Origin: an uncultured Clostridia bacterium
Lineage (GTDB): Bacteria; Bacillota; Clostridia; Christensenellales; Borkfalkiaceae
Length of the DNA: 40,837 nucleotides
Assembly (NCBI GenBank): GCA_947625385.1
Contig: CANQOB010000014.1
Span: 1 to 40,837 of the forward strand
Direction: 5' to 3'
Numbering within the stretch: position 1 is the first letter of the stretch; the number at the start of each line of letters is the position of its first letter. Made by a program: the position numbers and the translations under genes. This document shows positions 23,694 to 28,781 of the stretch, in pieces. A model generated the notes under the pieces. That model was not told the origin of the DNA and did no database searches. It saw only the letters and a program-made list of their open reading frames with translations.

Positions 23694-24236
23694 ATGGCAA
23701 AAAATCCTTATGAGGGGACCAAGACGGAGCGCAACCTTTGGGAAGCGTTTGCGGGAGAGAGCCAGGCGCGCAACAAATACACCTATTTTGCGTCCGTGGC
23801 GAAAAAGGCAGGCTACGAGCAGATCGCAGAGCTCTTCTTAAAGACGGCGGAGAACGAGAAGGAGCACGCAAAACTGTGGTTCAAGGCGCTCGGCGAACTC
23901 GGCACGACCGAGCAAAACCTCCTCGCCGCGGCAACGGGCGAAAACTTCGAATGGACGGACATGTACGAGCGCATGGCGCGCGAAGCGGAGGAGGAAGGCT
24001 TTTCCGCGCTCGCGGCACAGTTCCGCGGCGTCGCCGCCATCGAGAAGGCTCACGAGGAGAGATACCGCGCCCTGCTCCACAACATCGAGACCAAACAGGT
24101 CTTTGAAAAGAGCGGCGTCGTGATTTGGGAATGCAGAAATTGCGGACATATCGTCATCGGCACCAAGGCGCCCGACGTCTGCCCCGTCTGCAACCACCCG
24201 CAGAGCTTCTTCGAAGTCAAGAATCAGAACTACTAA
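23694..24236 (+). CDS. rbr: Rubrerythrin
   Basis: A 180-aa protein with an N-terminal ferritin-like four-helix domain (di-iron ligands in [16 protein letters not shown] and IEKAHEERY) and a C-terminal rubredoxin-like domain with two CxxC pairs (CRNCG and CPVC). Rubrerythrin reduces hydrogen peroxide in the cytoplasm of anaerobes. This is the standard single-copy domain order and length. ATG 23694 follows AAAAGGAGATCGGT. The stop codon lies 5 bp before a structured repeat that may form the 3' end of the mRNA. Strictly anaerobic life is consistent with this gene. Confidence 0.97.
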
Positions 24237-24241
24237 GCCTG

Positions 24242-24395
24242 TTTCGCGCGATTTGTTTTGCATGCGTAAAACAAATCGCGCGAGCGAATGGGCGTGTATG
24301 CCTCAATAGGTTTGGCTCCGATTCGAGGTTTCATCGGACAGTAAGCCGAAAGGGTTCGGCAACTTGTGTCGCCCACGGCGGAAGTGAATTCCGCC
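24242..24395 (+). repeat. Structured repeat, copy 1 (three stem-loops, possible RNA element)
   Basis: Directly behind rubrerythrin. Stem 1 is 24244-24283: TCGCGCGATTTGTTTT pairs perfectly with its complement, and two inner pairs include one G-U. A conserved tail follows to 24342. Stem 2 is GCCGAA/TTCGGC with an AGGG loop (24345-24360), and stem 3 is GGCGGAA/TTCCGCC (24377-24395). The first 101 bases match 28126-28026 (minus) at 85 positions without gaps. Differences in stems 1 and 2 keep pairing. Substitutions show no third-codon-position bias in the shared open frame, so it is not coding. Confidence 0.75.
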
Positions 24396-24415
24396 TAAGG
24401 CAACAATTTTAGAAT

Positions 24416-24450
24416 AAAAGAGCGCGGCGGCATCGATGATGCCGCCGCGC
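24416..24450 (-). terminator. GC-rich hairpin, likely terminator of the LRR lipoprotein transcript
   Basis: A perfect 13-bp stem (GCGCGGCGGCATC and complement) with a GAT loop; on the minus strand TCTTTTATT follows. It lies about 270 bp beyond the LRR gene stop. A near twin lies at 26820-26853. Confidence 0.55.
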
Positions 24451-24474
24451 GGAGTTGTTGCGATGTTTTTGCTA

Positions 24475-24722
24475 AATTGCTTATTTCATTCCCCTTTCGG
24501 GGGGGAGCGCCGCAGTTCTCGCTCAACAGTGCAGTGCACTGTGAGCGGCGGCGCGACATGAGCGGTGGCACCCGCGAGGGGGCGTGCGGCGGTCCCTGCC
24601 GCCCACGCGAGCGCGAAAACCCAAGTTCCCCCCTTTCGGGGGGGAACACAGGGTGACCCCCGTGCTCCCCAATATTGAATGAAGGGAATGTATAAACTTG
24701 TCTTGGAACAAATTTCGCGAAT
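24475..24722. other. Hairpin-rich intergenic segment without a gene
   Basis: No credible gene is seen. The stretch holds CCCC-TTTC-GGGG (24491-24502), ACAGTGCA-G-TGCACTGT (about 24519-24535), GCGG/CCGC-rich blocks and a second G/C hairpin GTTCCCCCC-TTTC-GGGGGGGAAC (24625-24647). It would be transcribed as the 3' tail of the LRR mRNA (minus). It may be a dispersed repeat, but no second copy is visible in the window. Confidence 0.5.
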
Positions 24723-26594
24723 TTAGTGCTTGCTGTCAGGCAACATGGCGACTTCGGAAGGCGCAACGGCTTCCGTGGGGATAGCCTCGATCTTATCGGC
24801 GAGACTGCTCCAATACTGCGCGGTCTTGTAGGTCTCTACGCTCTCGGCGGGAACATAGATCTTGGCATTCTTACATCCGAACACGATACCCCAAGAGCTT
24901 GCCGTGGGCGGCGTCGTCGCCTTGATCGTAATGGAAGTCAGCGTATCCATCGTCGCGAAGATCTCGTCGTCGGATACATCGGCAAGTTGTTCGCCGAATA
25001 CGACGCTGACAAGCGGGCATTGATAGAAAGGATGGGATTTGATTGTTTTTACGCTCTCGAATTCGGCATTCGTGATTTTCGTCGCAGAGAAGCAATATGC
25101 GGAGAGGGTCTCTGCCTTCGGGAAAGAGATCGTTTGCAGTTTGCTTGCATTACTGAACGCGTATTTCCCGACGGTCACTGCCTTGGGGAAGCTAACCGAT
25201 GTTACGGTCGTGTTATAATAGAACGCGGAATTGTTGATCGCCGTCACATCTTCGAACGCGACTTCGGTTTCCGTGCTGTACGGAAGATACATGTAGAGGA
25301 TTGTTCCGTCCTTGGAAAGAACTGCATTATTTTCGACTTTGAAGTGTTCGTTCTTCGGGTCGACAGTCACGGACTGCACCTTGGCGACATTCTTCGGTTC
25401 GCACTTTGCGAACTCATAGGTGTTGTTCTTGCCCATGCCGAAGAGCTTGCCGAAGTCGGGGAATACCGTCAGGTCGGCAGGGATTTTCAGGTTGGTGTAG
25501 TCCCCCGTGTACTCGTTGAGAGTGCCGTCACCATTGATCTTCCAATCGGGGTCGGCTTCCTGTTGGAACCCGCATTCGCAGGTATCACCGCTTGTGAAAT
25601 CGTGCGCCTCAACACTGCTTTCGTCTTTCGCATTATCAAAATCACAAGCCTTCCAGTGGTTCTCGCTGTCATAAGCCCACTTCGAATAGGTATGGACGTG
25701 TTTGAGGGTCGGTTTGAGCGCACCGGAAACCCAAGTGACTTCGAACAGACCGTCAGGGGCGTCGCTCGGACGACCAAGGTTCCCGCCCTGGTCGGGATAG
25801 TACTGCTTGTTGAGTTTGTTATAGACTTTGAACTGGTCGCCTTCCTTTACGGTGATCGTCGCGCTCCAAGTCTTATCCCCGTCGAAGGTCATGTGGATGC
25901 AGTTCTCAATGACGCCGTAGTCGGGCCAATCGTTCTTGGGATAGGCGGCAAGTTTGCCGACGATATACATATCTTCCGTCGTCGTGGGCGGGGTGACGCT
26001 CTCAACGAGTTCCCAGCTCACGTAATTGTCTTTCCAAGGGGCGGGAGACGGTTTGGTATGTACGGTGAACTTGTAAATGCCGTCTTTTCCCGTTGCCACG
26101 CCGATGTTCTTCGTGCCCGCGTCGATGAAGGTACCCGAAGCGTTGCGCACTTCATCGATGCCGAAATAGGTGCCGTCAGTCCATTTGAGGGCGCCGTTCT
26201 CGTCTTTCTCATTTTGCCTGATCTTGAAGCTGTCGCCGCCGGCATAGATCTTGAATTGGATGGTGTAGAGGGTGAAGCCCTCCGCATCTTTCTTGGATTC
26301 CTTGGTGAGCTTGAAATTAGATTTGAGTTCCGTCCAACTTGCATTCTGCAAGTCTCCCGCGCCTGCGCCGGTCACCCAAAATTCGCGGGTGTCGAGGTCG
26401 GCGTCGGGGGTGACGTCGCCCTCCCCGGGATTATCGGGGTTGTCGGGTGTGTTGGGGTCGTCGGGGTTGTTGATGCCGGGCTTGTCGCCCTCGTTCGGGT
26501 TGGGCTCCGTGGGAGCGCAGGCGGCGACCGCCCAGCCGAGACAGCCGGCGAGCGCCACGGAAAGTCCCAGTGTGAGCCATTTCTTGGTGTTCAT
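24723..26594 (-). CDS. Surface lipoprotein with two beta-modules and BspA-type leucine-rich repeats
   Basis: A 623-aa lipoprotein (lipobox WAVAAC, Cys 26). After a Pro/Asn/Asp-rich linker come two beta-modules beginning REFWVTG (about 70-200) and EDMYIVG (about 208-300), related to a module in amylase copy 2. Next is one Cys/His segment (HVHTYSKW, HWKAC, CECG), then BspA/LRR_5-type repeats (about 385-600; phrases such as INNSAFYYNTTVTSVSFP). LRR proteins of this type bind host or polymer surfaces; the shared modules suggest glucan binding, which is inference. ATG 26594 follows TTTAGGAGGAATGT. Expression probably depends on an unusual promoter with a G8 spacer. Confidence 0.9.
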   Translation of the reverse strand: MNTKKWLTLGLSVALAGCLGWAVAACAPTEPNPNEGDKPGINNPDDPNTPDNPDNPGEGDVTPDADLDTREFWVTGAGAGDLQNASWTELKSNFKLTKESKKDAEGFTLYTIQFKIYAGGDSFKIRQNEKDENGALKWTDGTYFGIDEVRNASGTFIDAGTKNIGVATGKDGIYKFTVHTKPSPAPWKDNYVSWELVESVTPPTTTEDMYIVGKLAAYPKNDWPDYGVIENCIHMTFDGDKTWSATITVKEGDQFKVYNKLNKQYYPDQGGNLGRPSDAPDGLFEVTWVSGALKPTLKHVHTYSKWAYDSENHWKACDFDNAKDESSVEAHDFTSGDTCECGFQQEADPDWKINGDGTLNEYTGDYTNLKIPADLTVFPDFGKLFGMGKNNTYEFAKCEPKNVAKVQSVTVDPKNEHFKVENNAVLSKDGTILYMYLPYSTETEVAFEDVTAINNSAFYYNTTVTSVSFPKAVTVGKYAFSNASKLQTISFPKAETLSAYCFSATKITNAEFESVKTIKSHPFYQCPLVSVVFGEQLADVSDDEIFATMDTLTSITIKATTPPTASSWGIVFGCKNAKIYVPAESVETYKTAQYWSSLADKIEAIPTEAVAPSEVAMLPDSKH

Positions 26595-26658
26595 ACATTC
26601 CTCCTAAAAAAGTTTTATTTGCCGTTATCCACGAAGTTTTCGCGTTTCGGCACTTACT

Positions 26659-26685
26659 ATTATACCACCCCCCCCTGCTTGTCAA
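26659..26685 (-). promoter_or_regulatory. Promoter of the LRR lipoprotein with a G8 tract in a 15-bp spacer
   Basis: Perfect TTGACA (26680-26685) and perfect TATAAT (26659-26664) are separated by only 15 bp, eight of which are consecutive G (C8 on plus at 26668-26675). A/T-rich sequence resembling an UP element lies upstream. Slippage in the G tract would change the spacing; two more G would give the optimal 17. Confidence 0.8.
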
Positions 26686-26819
26686 GTGTTTTTTTGATAA
26701 AATCTAAAAATTTTCGAAAAATTTTTTCTGACGCGCGAAAATTTCTTTCGCGCGACCTATTTTATAAGAAAAATTGCCCCATGAAACTTATCAACATGGC
26801 AAGAAATAGCCGAAAGGAA

Positions 26820-26853
26820 AAGAGCGCGGCGGCTTCGAAAGAAGCCGCCGCGC
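26820..26853 (-). terminator. GC-rich hairpin upstream of the LRR promoter, likely insulating terminator
   Basis: A 13-bp stem GCGCGGCGGCTTC with a GAAA loop; on the minus strand TCTTTT follows. It shares AAAGAGCGCGGCGGC with the hairpin at 24416-24450; the one changed stem pair (A-T to T-A) keeps pairing. It would stop minus-strand transcription coming from the IS30 side. Confidence 0.45.
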
Positions 26854-26864
26854 AAGAAAAATTG

Positions 26865-26890
26865 GTGAATTATACTATCAAGTGCAACGG
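26865..26890 (+). repeat. IS30 left inverted repeat
   Basis: Outer seven bases GTGAATT and inner AAGTGCAAC match the right end in inverted orientation. Confidence 0.8.
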
Positions 26891-26906
26891 GGTGAGAGAT
26901 AAAAAA

Positions 26907-26935
26907 GTAGTTCAAACGGAAGTCTGTGTTATAAT
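26907..26935 (+). promoter_or_regulatory. Promoter of the IS30 transposase
   Basis: Extended -10 TGTTATAAT (26927-26935) with a poor -35, about 37 bp before the transposase ATG and inside the element. Confidence 0.5.
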
Positions 26936-26971
26936 AGAGATTGCGAAACCACTACAACACAGGAGGTCCGA

Positions 26972-27937
26972 ATGAACTACCACCATCTTACCATAGAAGA
27001 ACGCGCTTGTCTACGAAAATACTATACTGAAGGATTAAGTTTTCGAAAAATTGCAAAATTATTGGGACGAAGCCCGAGTACGATCTCCCGGGAGATCGGC
27101 AGGAATTATACGCACCGGTATGAGTATAACACCTATTACCCTCATACGGCACAGAAGAAATATCTGTTCCGCAGGTCGTTCTGCCACAGGGGAATGTTTT
27201 GGGAAAAGGAAGTCACGGATTATATCACGGAGAAGTTATCCTTAACTTGGTCTCCCGAACAAATTTCAAAAACTCCGTGTGCGTTGAAGATGCCTTCCTT
27301 TAAGACGATCTACCGTTGGTTATACGAGGGATATGTAGCCAAAGGAGACGTAAAGAAGCTGCGACGAAAGGGAAAGACAAGGAAACGGCTTGGGAATGGC
27401 GGAAGGTTTACAACGGGGAAGAGCATACGAAAACGGGACAAGAGCGTATATACGCGGAAAGAGTTCGGGCATTGGGAAGCGGATACGGTAGTGAGCGGGC
27501 GAGGAAAGAGCAAAGCGTGCTTTGCGACGCTTGCAGAGAGGAAAACAAGGTTTTACATAGCGATCAAGCTTCCAAACCGTGACGGGGAGACAATGGCGAA
27601 AGCGGTGATTGCAGCTCTCTCCAAGCTCCCCCAAGGAGCGGTAAAGACCATAACCTGTGACCGAGGCAGCGAGTTTTCCCATTGGAGAGAGATAGAAGAG
27701 GCATTGCATTGCTCTGTCTATTTCGCCGACCCCTATTGTGCATGGCAAAAGGGAACGAATGAAAACCTGAACGGTTTACTCCGCGAGTTCTATCCCAAAG
27801 GGCATAATCTTTCCCATGTAAGCGACAAAACTCTAAAAAAGAATCTGGCGCTTCTCAACGCCAGACCCAAAAAAATCCTTCTCTTCCAAACTCCACAGAG
27901 TTTGTTTGAACAAAATCTCAAAAACTGTTGCACTTAG
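26972..27937 (+). CDS. IS30-family transposase
   Basis: A 321-aa DDE transposase. The N-terminal helix-turn-helix (LTIEERACLRKYY, then SFRKIAKLLGRSPSTISREI) recognises the inverted repeats. The catalytic residues are visible as WEADTVV (first Asp), TCDRGSEF (second Asp) and GTNENLNGLLREF (Glu), with the IS30 ending FYPKGHNLSHV. Length is typical and the frame is uninterrupted, so the element may still move. ATG 26972 follows AGGAGGTCCGA. The gene is slightly less GC-rich than its neighbours, as expected for a mobile gene. Confidence 0.96.
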   Translation: MNYHHLTIEERACLRKYYTEGLSFRKIAKLLGRSPSTISREIGRNYTHRYEYNTYYPHTAQKKYLFRRSFCHRGMFWEKEVTDYITEKLSLTWSPEQISKTPCALKMPSFKTIYRWLYEGYVAKGDVKKLRRKGKTRKRLGNGGRFTTGKSIRKRDKSVYTRKEFGHWEADTVVSGRGKSKACFATLAERKTRFYIAIKLPNRDGETMAKAVIAALSKLPQGAVKTITCDRGSEFSHWREIEEALHCSVYFADPYCAWQKGTNENLNGLLREFYPKGHNLSHVSDKTLKKNLALLNARPKKILLFQTPQSLFEQNLKNCCT

Positions 27938-27950
27938 TTTGACAATTCAC
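27925..27950 (-). repeat. IS30 right inverted repeat
   Basis: Inverted partner of 26865-26890; it starts inside the last codons of the transposase gene. Confidence 0.8.
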
Positions 27951-27966
27951 TAAATTCAAAATAACG

Positions 27967-27998
27967 GAAAAAGCAAAAACCACGCTTTTTGCTTTTTC
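27967..27998. terminator. Bidirectional hairpin between IS30 and the HAD gene
   Basis: A perfect 13-bp A/T-rich stem, GAAAAAGCAAAAA with its complement, around a 6-nt loop. It supplies T-rich sequence on both strands. On the minus strand it is also stem 3 of the structured repeat copy 2. Confidence 0.6.
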
Positions 27999-28126
27999 GC
28001 AGCATTTGCGCACCACGGTACGCACACTGTCCGTTGAAACATCCAATCGGAGCCAAGTTCGTTAAGGCATACACGCTCATTCGCTCGCGCGATTTCTTTT
28101 GCGTCAGCAAAAGAAATCGCGCGAAA
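27967..28126 (-). repeat. Structured repeat, copy 2 (three stem-loops, possible RNA element)
   Basis: Minus-strand copy at the 3' end of the HAD gene. Stem 1 (28085-28124) is a perfect 18-bp hairpin with a 4-nt loop that contains the HAD stop codon. The conserved tail runs to 28026. Stem 2 (28008-28023) is GCGTAC/GTGCGC with a CGTG loop, at the same 2-nt offset as in copy 1 but with different, still pairing, bases. Stem 3 is at 27967-27998. Copy 1 lies behind rubrerythrin in the opposite orientation. Confidence 0.75.
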
Positions 28127-28781
28127 GAACAGAAATAAGTTCCCCGTAATCCGACGCGACAACGCCGTCGTAGCCCTGCGGCGCCGTCCGTGCAAACAAG
28201 ATGAACGGGACGCCGAGAAGCTCCGCACACGCCCTGTCCGAAGTCAAACTGTCGCCGACCCAGACGGCGCGCGTCCTTTGAAAGCCGGGGATGTGCGTGC
28301 ACACATAATCCGCGTACGCCTGCGAAGGCTTGTCCGCGCCGATCTCCTCCGAGATGAACGCGCCCGCAAGATAGGGAGAAAACCCCGCGTCGGCGATGTG
28401 GCGGCGCTGGATGACGGTACTTCCGTTCGTCACGATGTAGATCCTGCCGCGTGCGGCGAGCGTCTCCAAAAACTCCCGCGCACCCGGGAAGGGAAAGCAA
28501 ACTTCGGAGAATCCCTCAAAATAGGCACGGGAGACCGCCTCCGCATCCGCGCGAAGTCCGAACTCCTCGAAGAAGAGATGAAACCGCCTCACTTTGAGTT
28601 CCTCCCGCAAGATCCCGCCGCGTTCGAGAAGTTTCCAGAGCCCGTCGTTGATCTCGTGGAAGCGCGCGCAGAGCGCGTCGTCGAAGGGCAATCCGAACGC
28701 CGAAAACGTGCGCCTGAGGTTCTCCCGCTCCGCTTTGGAAAAGTCGAGCAGCGTATCGTCAAGGTCGAGCAAAAAATCCAT
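28104..28781 (-). CDS. HAD-superfamily phosphatase, YjjG/YfnB-like
   Basis: A 225-aa cytoplasmic hydrolase. HAD motif I is DLDDT (residues 6-10, nucleophile Asp 6), motif II IVTNGST, motif III the Lys in GADKPS, and motif IV VGDSLTSDRACA. The helical cap between motifs I and II and the length match the YjjG/YfnB group, which dephosphorylates nucleotides or small phosphate esters; the true substrate is unknown. ATG 28781 overlaps the helicase stop region (TGAATG) with GGAGG upstream, so translation is coupled. The last codons and the stop lie inside the structured repeat, which may have replaced the original 3' end. Confidence 0.9.
   Translation of the reverse strand: MDFLLDLDDTLLDFSKAERENLRRTFSAFGLPFDDALCARFHEINDGLWKLLERGGILREELKVRRFHLFFEEFGLRADAEAVSRAYFEGFSEVCFPFPGAREFLETLAARGRIYIVTNGSTVIQRRHIADAGFSPYLAGAFISEEIGADKPSQAYADYVCTHIPGFQRTRAVWVGDSLTSDRACAELLGVPFILFARTAPQGYDGVVASDYGELISVLSRDFFC

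Follow-up and report, generated by a model that had tools for sequence, protein, structure and literature searches.

A genus-wide family of structured REP-like repeats, often just behind stop codons, in Clostridia

Bacteria of many kinds carry repeats behind stop codons, of which the REP sequences of enterobacteria are the best known, and these repeats have long been puzzling: do they regulate the genes that they follow, or are they merely tolerated there? REP, BIME and REPIN elements, found in E. coli, Pseudomonas and other bacteria, have several properties in common with the family that we describe here: they are multi-copy, palindromic and extragenic, they lie mostly downstream of genes, and a subset is near stop codons. 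ERIC, MITE-type and BOX elements are structured intergenic repeats of 100-200 nt, some of which (BOX) are modular (see also PMC2229807). E. coli REPs that are no more than 15 nt from a stop codon are reported to cause ribosome stalling, and protection of mRNA is reported for REPs in 3' regions (PMC12306157). The GTAG termini of REPs are also reported to supply, in many cases, the TAG stop codon of a gene (PMC3733652). Dispersed, mobile hairpins are known from mitochondria of fungi and sponges as well, where they are called double-hairpin or repetitive hairpin elements (see also PMC2800124).

The locus studied here is part of a 40,837-nt stretch of DNA (the window; contig CANQOB010000014.1, assembly GCA_947625385.1) from an uncultured Clostridia bacterium of the family Borkfalkiaceae. 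An initial annotation, made from the letters of the window alone, had described a structured repeat in two inverted copies and had read the compensatory changes between them as a sign of selection on structure. We find that the two copies belong to a large family of modular units, that the hairpins of these units covary across related genomes, and that the units lie mainly in sense orientation and often a few nucleotides behind stop codons.

The repeat pair in the window and its family

An inverted-repeat search of the window reported five pairs, and the proposed arms, 24242-24342 on the plus strand and 28126-28026 on the minus strand, form the longest of them, with 84% complementarity over 101 nt. 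The exchanges that had been described are present in the alignment of the two copies. In the long first hairpin (H1) a G-C pair is replaced by C-G and a G-U pair by G-C, the short second hairpin (H2) is GCCGAA/TTCGGC in copy 1 and GCGTAC/GTGCGC in copy 2, and a third hairpin (H3) follows downstream in both (Table 1). Copies 1 and 2 have fold z-scores of -5.4 and -6.1, and none of 200 dinucleotide shuffles folded as low. Both copies are also, as described, in sense at the 3' end of a gene: copy 1 is 5 nt past the stop codon of a rubrerythrin gene, and the final 23 nt of a gene for a HAD-family hydrolase lie within copy 2, whose H1 loop provides the TGA of that gene. The C-terminus of this hydrolase is unlike those of the 12 relatives compared. 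The extent first given for the repeat was too short, as copy 1 reaches approximately 24401 and only then gives way to a terminator-like hairpin (24422-24450).

Table 1. Positions of the repeat copies, their parts and the neighbouring genes in the window
Feature	Position	Strand	Basis
Rubrerythrin gene	23694..24236	+	Pfam Rubrerythrin and RUBY_RBDX; codon-usage gene call; stop 5 nt before copy 1
Copy 1 H1, long hairpin, 19 pairs, 4-nt loop	24243..24284	+	fold; pair table
Copy 1 core, GAAT..GCGTGTATGCC..GTTTCATCGGACAGTAA, conserved, without well-supported pairs	24285..24344	+	alignments A2 and A3; covariation scan
Copy 1 H2, 6-bp hairpin GCCGAA/TTCGGC	24345..24360	+	alignment, pair table, covariation
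Copy 1 H3, GGCGGAA/TTCCGCC with outer GCC/GGC	24371..24401	+	sequence; inner stem in fold; H3 survey in relatives
Terminator-like GC hairpin after copy 1	24422..24450	+	one of 43 genome places with exact arms
LRR_5 (BspA-type) surface protein gene, between the copies	24723..26594	-	Pfam
Terminator-like GC hairpin assigned to copy 2	26824..26853	-	exact-arm scan; uninterrupted order at locus L011
IS30-like insertion, transposase HTH_38 + rve 26972-27937	26864..27951	+	Pfam; ends read from sequence
Copy 2 H3, GAAAAAGCAAAAA../..TTTTTGCTTTTTC	27967..27998	-	fold
Copy 2 H2, GCGTAC/GTGCGC	28008..28023	-	alignment, pair table
Copy 2 core	28024..28083	-	alignment
Copy 2 H1	28084..28125	-	inverted-repeat search, fold, alignment
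HAD-family hydrolase gene, ends within copy 2 H1	28104..28781	-	Pfam; comparison of C-termini

An IS30-like element lies between H3 of copy 2 and the terminator-like hairpin assigned to that copy, and this insertion appears to have split the hairpin (26824-26853) from copy 2. It is flanked by an apparent 5-bp duplication, AAATT, which is inferred from comparison with another locus of the family (L011) where the order is uninterrupted. The promoter stretch of the window's LRR_5 lipoprotein gene, CTTGACAA.CAGGGGGGGGTGGTATAATAG, is found in near-identical form at a number of further loci of the same genome (such as L010, L013, L024 and L049), and the 3' regions are alike as well. These loci often adjoin units, and they look like an amplified family of surface-protein genes.

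The repeat had been taken to exist in two copies. A motif scan found at least 51 distinct units in the same genome (loci L001-L044, a set outside which copy 2 of the window lies), and the genome (1.66 Mb, 63 contigs) has 96 local matches at E values up to 10, a number that includes weak matches and self-matches of hairpins. The unit is about 165 nt long and modular. It consists of H1, which has several stem versions, the core, H2, which is mostly one of the two forms seen in the window, H3, which is of several kinds, and a spacer. Some units stand alone, others form tandem arrays that repeat about every 170 nt, and others are arranged back to back around one GC hairpin. A terminator-like GC hairpin, GCGCGGCGGC..GCCGCCGCGC, is present in near-identical form with exact arms at 43 places in the genome, often, though not always, behind a unit.

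The family is found in many genomes of one genus. We built a covariance model from units of this genome (model R1; 26 units, 25 pairs) and ran it on the genome itself and on related ones. R1 matched the genome of the window and 34 of the 48 other genomes of the genus (35 of 49), with unit counts per genome that are lower bounds, and it matched none of 32 genomes of other families. A second model, R2, was built from 86 units of relatives; across 200 genomes of the order it matched five, all in the genus, and it found none in the six listed genomes of other genera within the family. Because the filters were stricter and some forms are divergent, genomes of the genus with zero matches are not necessarily empty. 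For example, R1 gave no match in one genome (G012) in which R2 weakly matches a site behind dnaK (L286, E 8.5e-5). The exact core pattern is present in at least 100 stretches of the genome collection, 99 of them titled uncultured Clostridia bacterium isolate Lapin-... and one from Rhodothermales. The Lapin-titled stretches, from approximately 16 bins, are referred to below as the named set. Since Lapin is French for rabbit, they are probably MAGs from the rabbit gut. R1 gave 116 matches on 80 of the stretches (L162-L241) and none in the Rhodothermales stretch. A similarity search found no similar DNA in plasmids or phages, viral contigs had no match to one exact pattern, and we found no description of this repeat family within open-licence papers. 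Among the genomes searched, the family is specific to the genus.

Covariation of the hairpins

In the alignment of relatives' units (86 units, 84 distinct), which was fitted to the model and therefore leans towards structure, both partners are altered in 22 of the 25 pairs of H1 and H2, the share of paired cells is 94.7% (70.3% in shuffles, 34-58% in slid controls), and the covariation score is 0.546 (0.141 shuffled, 0.054-0.097 slid). A scan of all column pairs in the same alignment ranked 13 pairs of H1 and H2 at the top. For 26 units of the genome of the window, both partners are altered in 7 of 25 pairs, with 97.2% of cells paired. In a plain MAFFT alignment of own units, in which the versions of H1 are misaligned, RNAalifold recovered H2 alone, with four of its six pairs changed on both sides. 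H3 is present in relatives too, with 18 different loop-proximal 5-bp arm pairs across 57 of 64 segments. The covariation scan gave no helix in the core with support comparable to that of H1 and H2. A candidate core hairpin, GGC..GCC, was rejected as it is broken in many units, and pairing of the end of H1 (GAGG/GAGC) with CCTC/GCTC in the core has weak covariation (positions 46-80, 86% canonical).

These results support the reading of selection on structure. Three outcomes had been named that would speak against it, and none was obtained: the further copies do covary, the window has no match to an Rfam family at gathering score (only weak, sub-threshold matches in the region, E up to 10), and the neighbouring IS30-like element has ends of its own at 26864 and 27951. 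The covariation of H1 and H2 fits selection on an RNA and also on a DNA hairpin used in mobility, and it cannot separate the two; covariation of hairpins would also be expected if single-stranded DNA hairpins were needed for mobility.

We rejected the possibility that the core is coding. Differences in the 37 units of equal length are distributed over codon positions as 2317/2669/2740, with no third-position excess, and core lengths are 55-57. A frame from GAATG is open through the core in all 51 units of the genome, though ATG is present in only 22 of them.

Placement behind stop codons and at orthologous sites

The distance between units and stop codons was determined in a frame test of units with a traced H1, which left out 38 of 116 units in the named set and 32 of 86 in the relatives' set as untraced, and from which tandem, duplicate and edge units were also dropped. 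In the named set, 40 of 61 first units have the start of H1 at a distance of -2 to 8 nt from the stop codon of a same-strand frame of at least 100 codons. The same count is 1 in antisense, and 1.3 are expected at random. All three stop codons are used among the 40 (TAA 25, TAG 11, TGA 4). The relatives' set has 22 of 42 first units at this distance, with 0.9 expected; it overlaps the named set, and units of one genome are not independent. As for orientation, the gene upstream of the first unit in an array is codirectional, opposite or absent in 84, 4 and 7 of 95 cases in the named set (codon-usage gene caller), in 53, 11 and 4 of 68 cases in relatives, and in 28, 11 and 3 of 42 cases in the genome of the window. 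Codirectional units are within 8 nt of the stop codon in 41/84, 41/53 and 11/28 cases, respectively. The stop-codon rule thus holds closely in relatives and more loosely in the genome of the window. At least one of the relatives' opposite units (L081) looks miscalled, as a same-strand frame ends there. In genes without an H1, by comparison, the first strong hairpin is at a median of 20 nt from the stop codon and within 8 nt in 14% (180 genes with such a hairpin within 110 nt).

The named set has a second group of distances at 61-130 nt (n=19), part of which probably consists of units whose H1 loop has taken up a nested insert, so that the model starts late on them. Traced H1 spans are at least 58 nt in 35 of 78 units, a few of which are perhaps mistraced. 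Nesting is seen directly at some loci of this set (e.g., L199, L211 and L233), where H1 loops hold other repeats such as CCCCTTGAGGGGTGGG..GACGGAAGGGGTGTC. Called genes contain none of the 115 units counted in the named set, whereas in the window, as described, copy 2 overlaps a gene end. In rRNA operons, units are present between 23S and 5S (L033, L075) and before 5S (L064). Further dispersed intergenic repeats, with motifs of the GTCATTCTGAGC type, are found in the same spacers as units at L266, L297, L308 and L317.

Filled and empty sites can be compared between genomes. Orthologous sites were found by gene searches that were independent of the presence of a unit, and the best 30 loci were used for each of rubrerythrin (of 51 genomes), dnaK (46 genomes matched) and pta (48 matched). 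At seven of the 30 pta-ackA loci, H1 is 0-13 nt behind pta and ackA is kept (one of these, L302, is a weak model match), and at 16 the gap is 7-44 nt. Of the remainder, two begin with H1 and have ackA outside the stretch, one has an 82-nt gap and four have other long inserts. Units confirmed by R2 are behind pta at 8 of 30 loci and behind dnaK at 9 of 30. The short gap in operons such as pta-ackA itself forces tolerated insertions to be close to the stop codon. Behind rubrerythrin, a unit is found in the genome of the window only and in none of the 29 relatives examined; at the relatives' rubrerythrin loci the sole R2 match is in L152, at a distance of over 1 kb. In 14 of these 29 relatives rubrerythrin and the HAD gene are convergent neighbours. 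The gap between the two genes is 55-141 nt in ten of them and 3,874 nt in the window. Thus, relative to those ten, the window has gained or kept an additional segment, 24242-28126, which includes the IS30-like insertion as well as the LRR_5 gene. The similarity of H1 arms is 0.73 within genomes and 0.59 between genomes, and it is higher within in all 18 relatives with at least two units (the genome of the window excluded), as expected if units spread inside lineages.

Possible origins and functions, and comparison with known repeats

Based on these results, we favor, with a probability of about 0.6, the reading that the family is a genus-wide, mobile, REP-like 3'-UTR repeat of about 165 nt whose hairpins act, as RNA, on the message upstream. 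Units would spread inside individual lineages as mobile repeats that are not autonomous, and they would be kept mainly in sense just behind stop codons. Transcription of a unit in this position would place it at the beginning of the 3' untranslated or intercistronic RNA, and its hairpins could slow terminating ribosomes, block 3'-to-5' exonucleases, or both. A stable hairpin a few nucleotides past a stop codon would fall within the footprint of the terminating ribosome. From this and from the stalling and protection reported for REPs, we infer an effect on the termination and decay of the upstream message, and action of this kind is the most likely function of the hairpins. Of the options that the initial annotation had offered, a 3'-UTR RNA and a mobile repeat are jointly favored, and a stand-alone small RNA is less so. 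Spread and function are two separate claims, and spread is the better supported. A more far-reaching version, which we regard as doubtful, is that the units represent a class of mobile structured RNA whose site is set by translation termination and not by DNA sequence, and which arrives or is retained mainly in sense, immediately after any type of stop codon, with hairpins that tune termination or decay.

A less likely alternative is that the family is a purely selfish MITE-like or palindrome-associated DNA repeat, with single-stranded DNA hairpins that are recognized by a transposase acting in trans, and that units are found behind stop codons only because insertions harmful to genes have been purged. 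The greater likeness of H1 arms within genomes, the filled and empty sites, the nested repeats in H1 loops, the tandem units and the looser placement in the genome of the window would all be consistent with this. However, purging alone predicts neither the sense bias (84 vs 4, 53 vs 11 and 28 vs 11) nor a peak at 0-8 nt, as units should then occupy the whole 3' spacer. In addition, no terminal inverted repeats or target duplications of the unit were recognized on reading the loci, and Y1 transposase (Y1_Tnp, PF01797) was rejected as a linked mobilizer: it is present in 10 of 35 genomes with a unit and in 4 of 14 without, and its one match in the genome of the window is in a 123-aa open frame. 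Sense orientation and stop-codon position would be explained directly if units were inserted at the RNA level, into mRNA or next to it where ribosomes terminate, and a reverse transcriptase then copied them back, and the use of all three stop codons also fits. Nevertheless, this is improbable. RVT_1 is found in only 6 of 35 genomes with a unit and in 2 of 14 without, so that reverse transcriptase too was rejected as a linked mobilizer, the genome of the window has no RVT_1 match at E 0.001, and we know of no such mechanism in bacteria. The analysis thus yielded no mobilizing enzyme for the family.

The two units in the window could instead be the ends of a composite mobile cassette (24242-28126) that carries the LRR surface-protein gene. 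Two inverted copies do bound a 3.87-kb segment, the HAD-rubrerythrin gap is short in 10 of 14 relatives, and several loci of the genome have back-to-back units around one GC hairpin. Yet units are found behind other genes, with no inverted partner in the stretch, in 20 relatives and at the filled pta sites, and both copies in the window read in the direction of the gene next to them. A cassette is quite improbable. The GC-rich hairpins behind stop codons, and the terminator-like hairpin that is often next in the genome of the window, might suggest that units terminate or attenuate transcription of the genes that they follow. We consider this very improbable and rejected it. No such role is apparent because downstream operon genes are kept: ackA follows the unit at seven pta-ackA loci, and 5S rRNA follows units between it and 23S. 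Units in tandem, and the lack of a long U-run directly after H3 in 20 relatives inspected by eye, also argue against termination.

The preferred reading, a mobile repeat with an effect on the upstream message, places the family close to REP and BIME elements. The family is likewise multi-copy, extragenic and built of stem-loops, but it differs from REPs in several ways. The unit is about 165 nt and has three hairpins, whereas REPs are 14-40 nt in E. coli. Units are biased towards the sense orientation, whereas REPs are often paired in opposite orientation. There is no GTAG or CGTC tag at the stem, and columns 1-6 of alignment A3 have no such consensus; the stem is preceded by TTT in units of the genome of the window and by TTT or GTT in relatives. 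The family is not associated with genes for Y1 (TnpA-REP/RAYT) proteins, and its stems have been replaced by compensatory changes between lineages. With ERIC, MITE and BOX elements it shares a structured intergenic repeat of 100-200 nt that is in some cases modular. In contrast to them, no terminal inverted repeats were recognized here, and the position relative to the stop codon is much tighter than is known for them. The mitochondrial hairpin elements are dispersed mobile hairpins like the units here. They belong to organelle genomes and are shorter than the unit, and we know of no stop-codon rule for them. The filled and empty orthologous sites at pta-ackA, dnaK-dnaJ and rubrerythrin make comparative and reporter tests direct. 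To the puzzle known from enterobacterial REPs, the family in Clostridia adds many related species in which the fold is larger and covaries clearly, the sense orientation is favored, and the position behind the stop codon is sharply defined.
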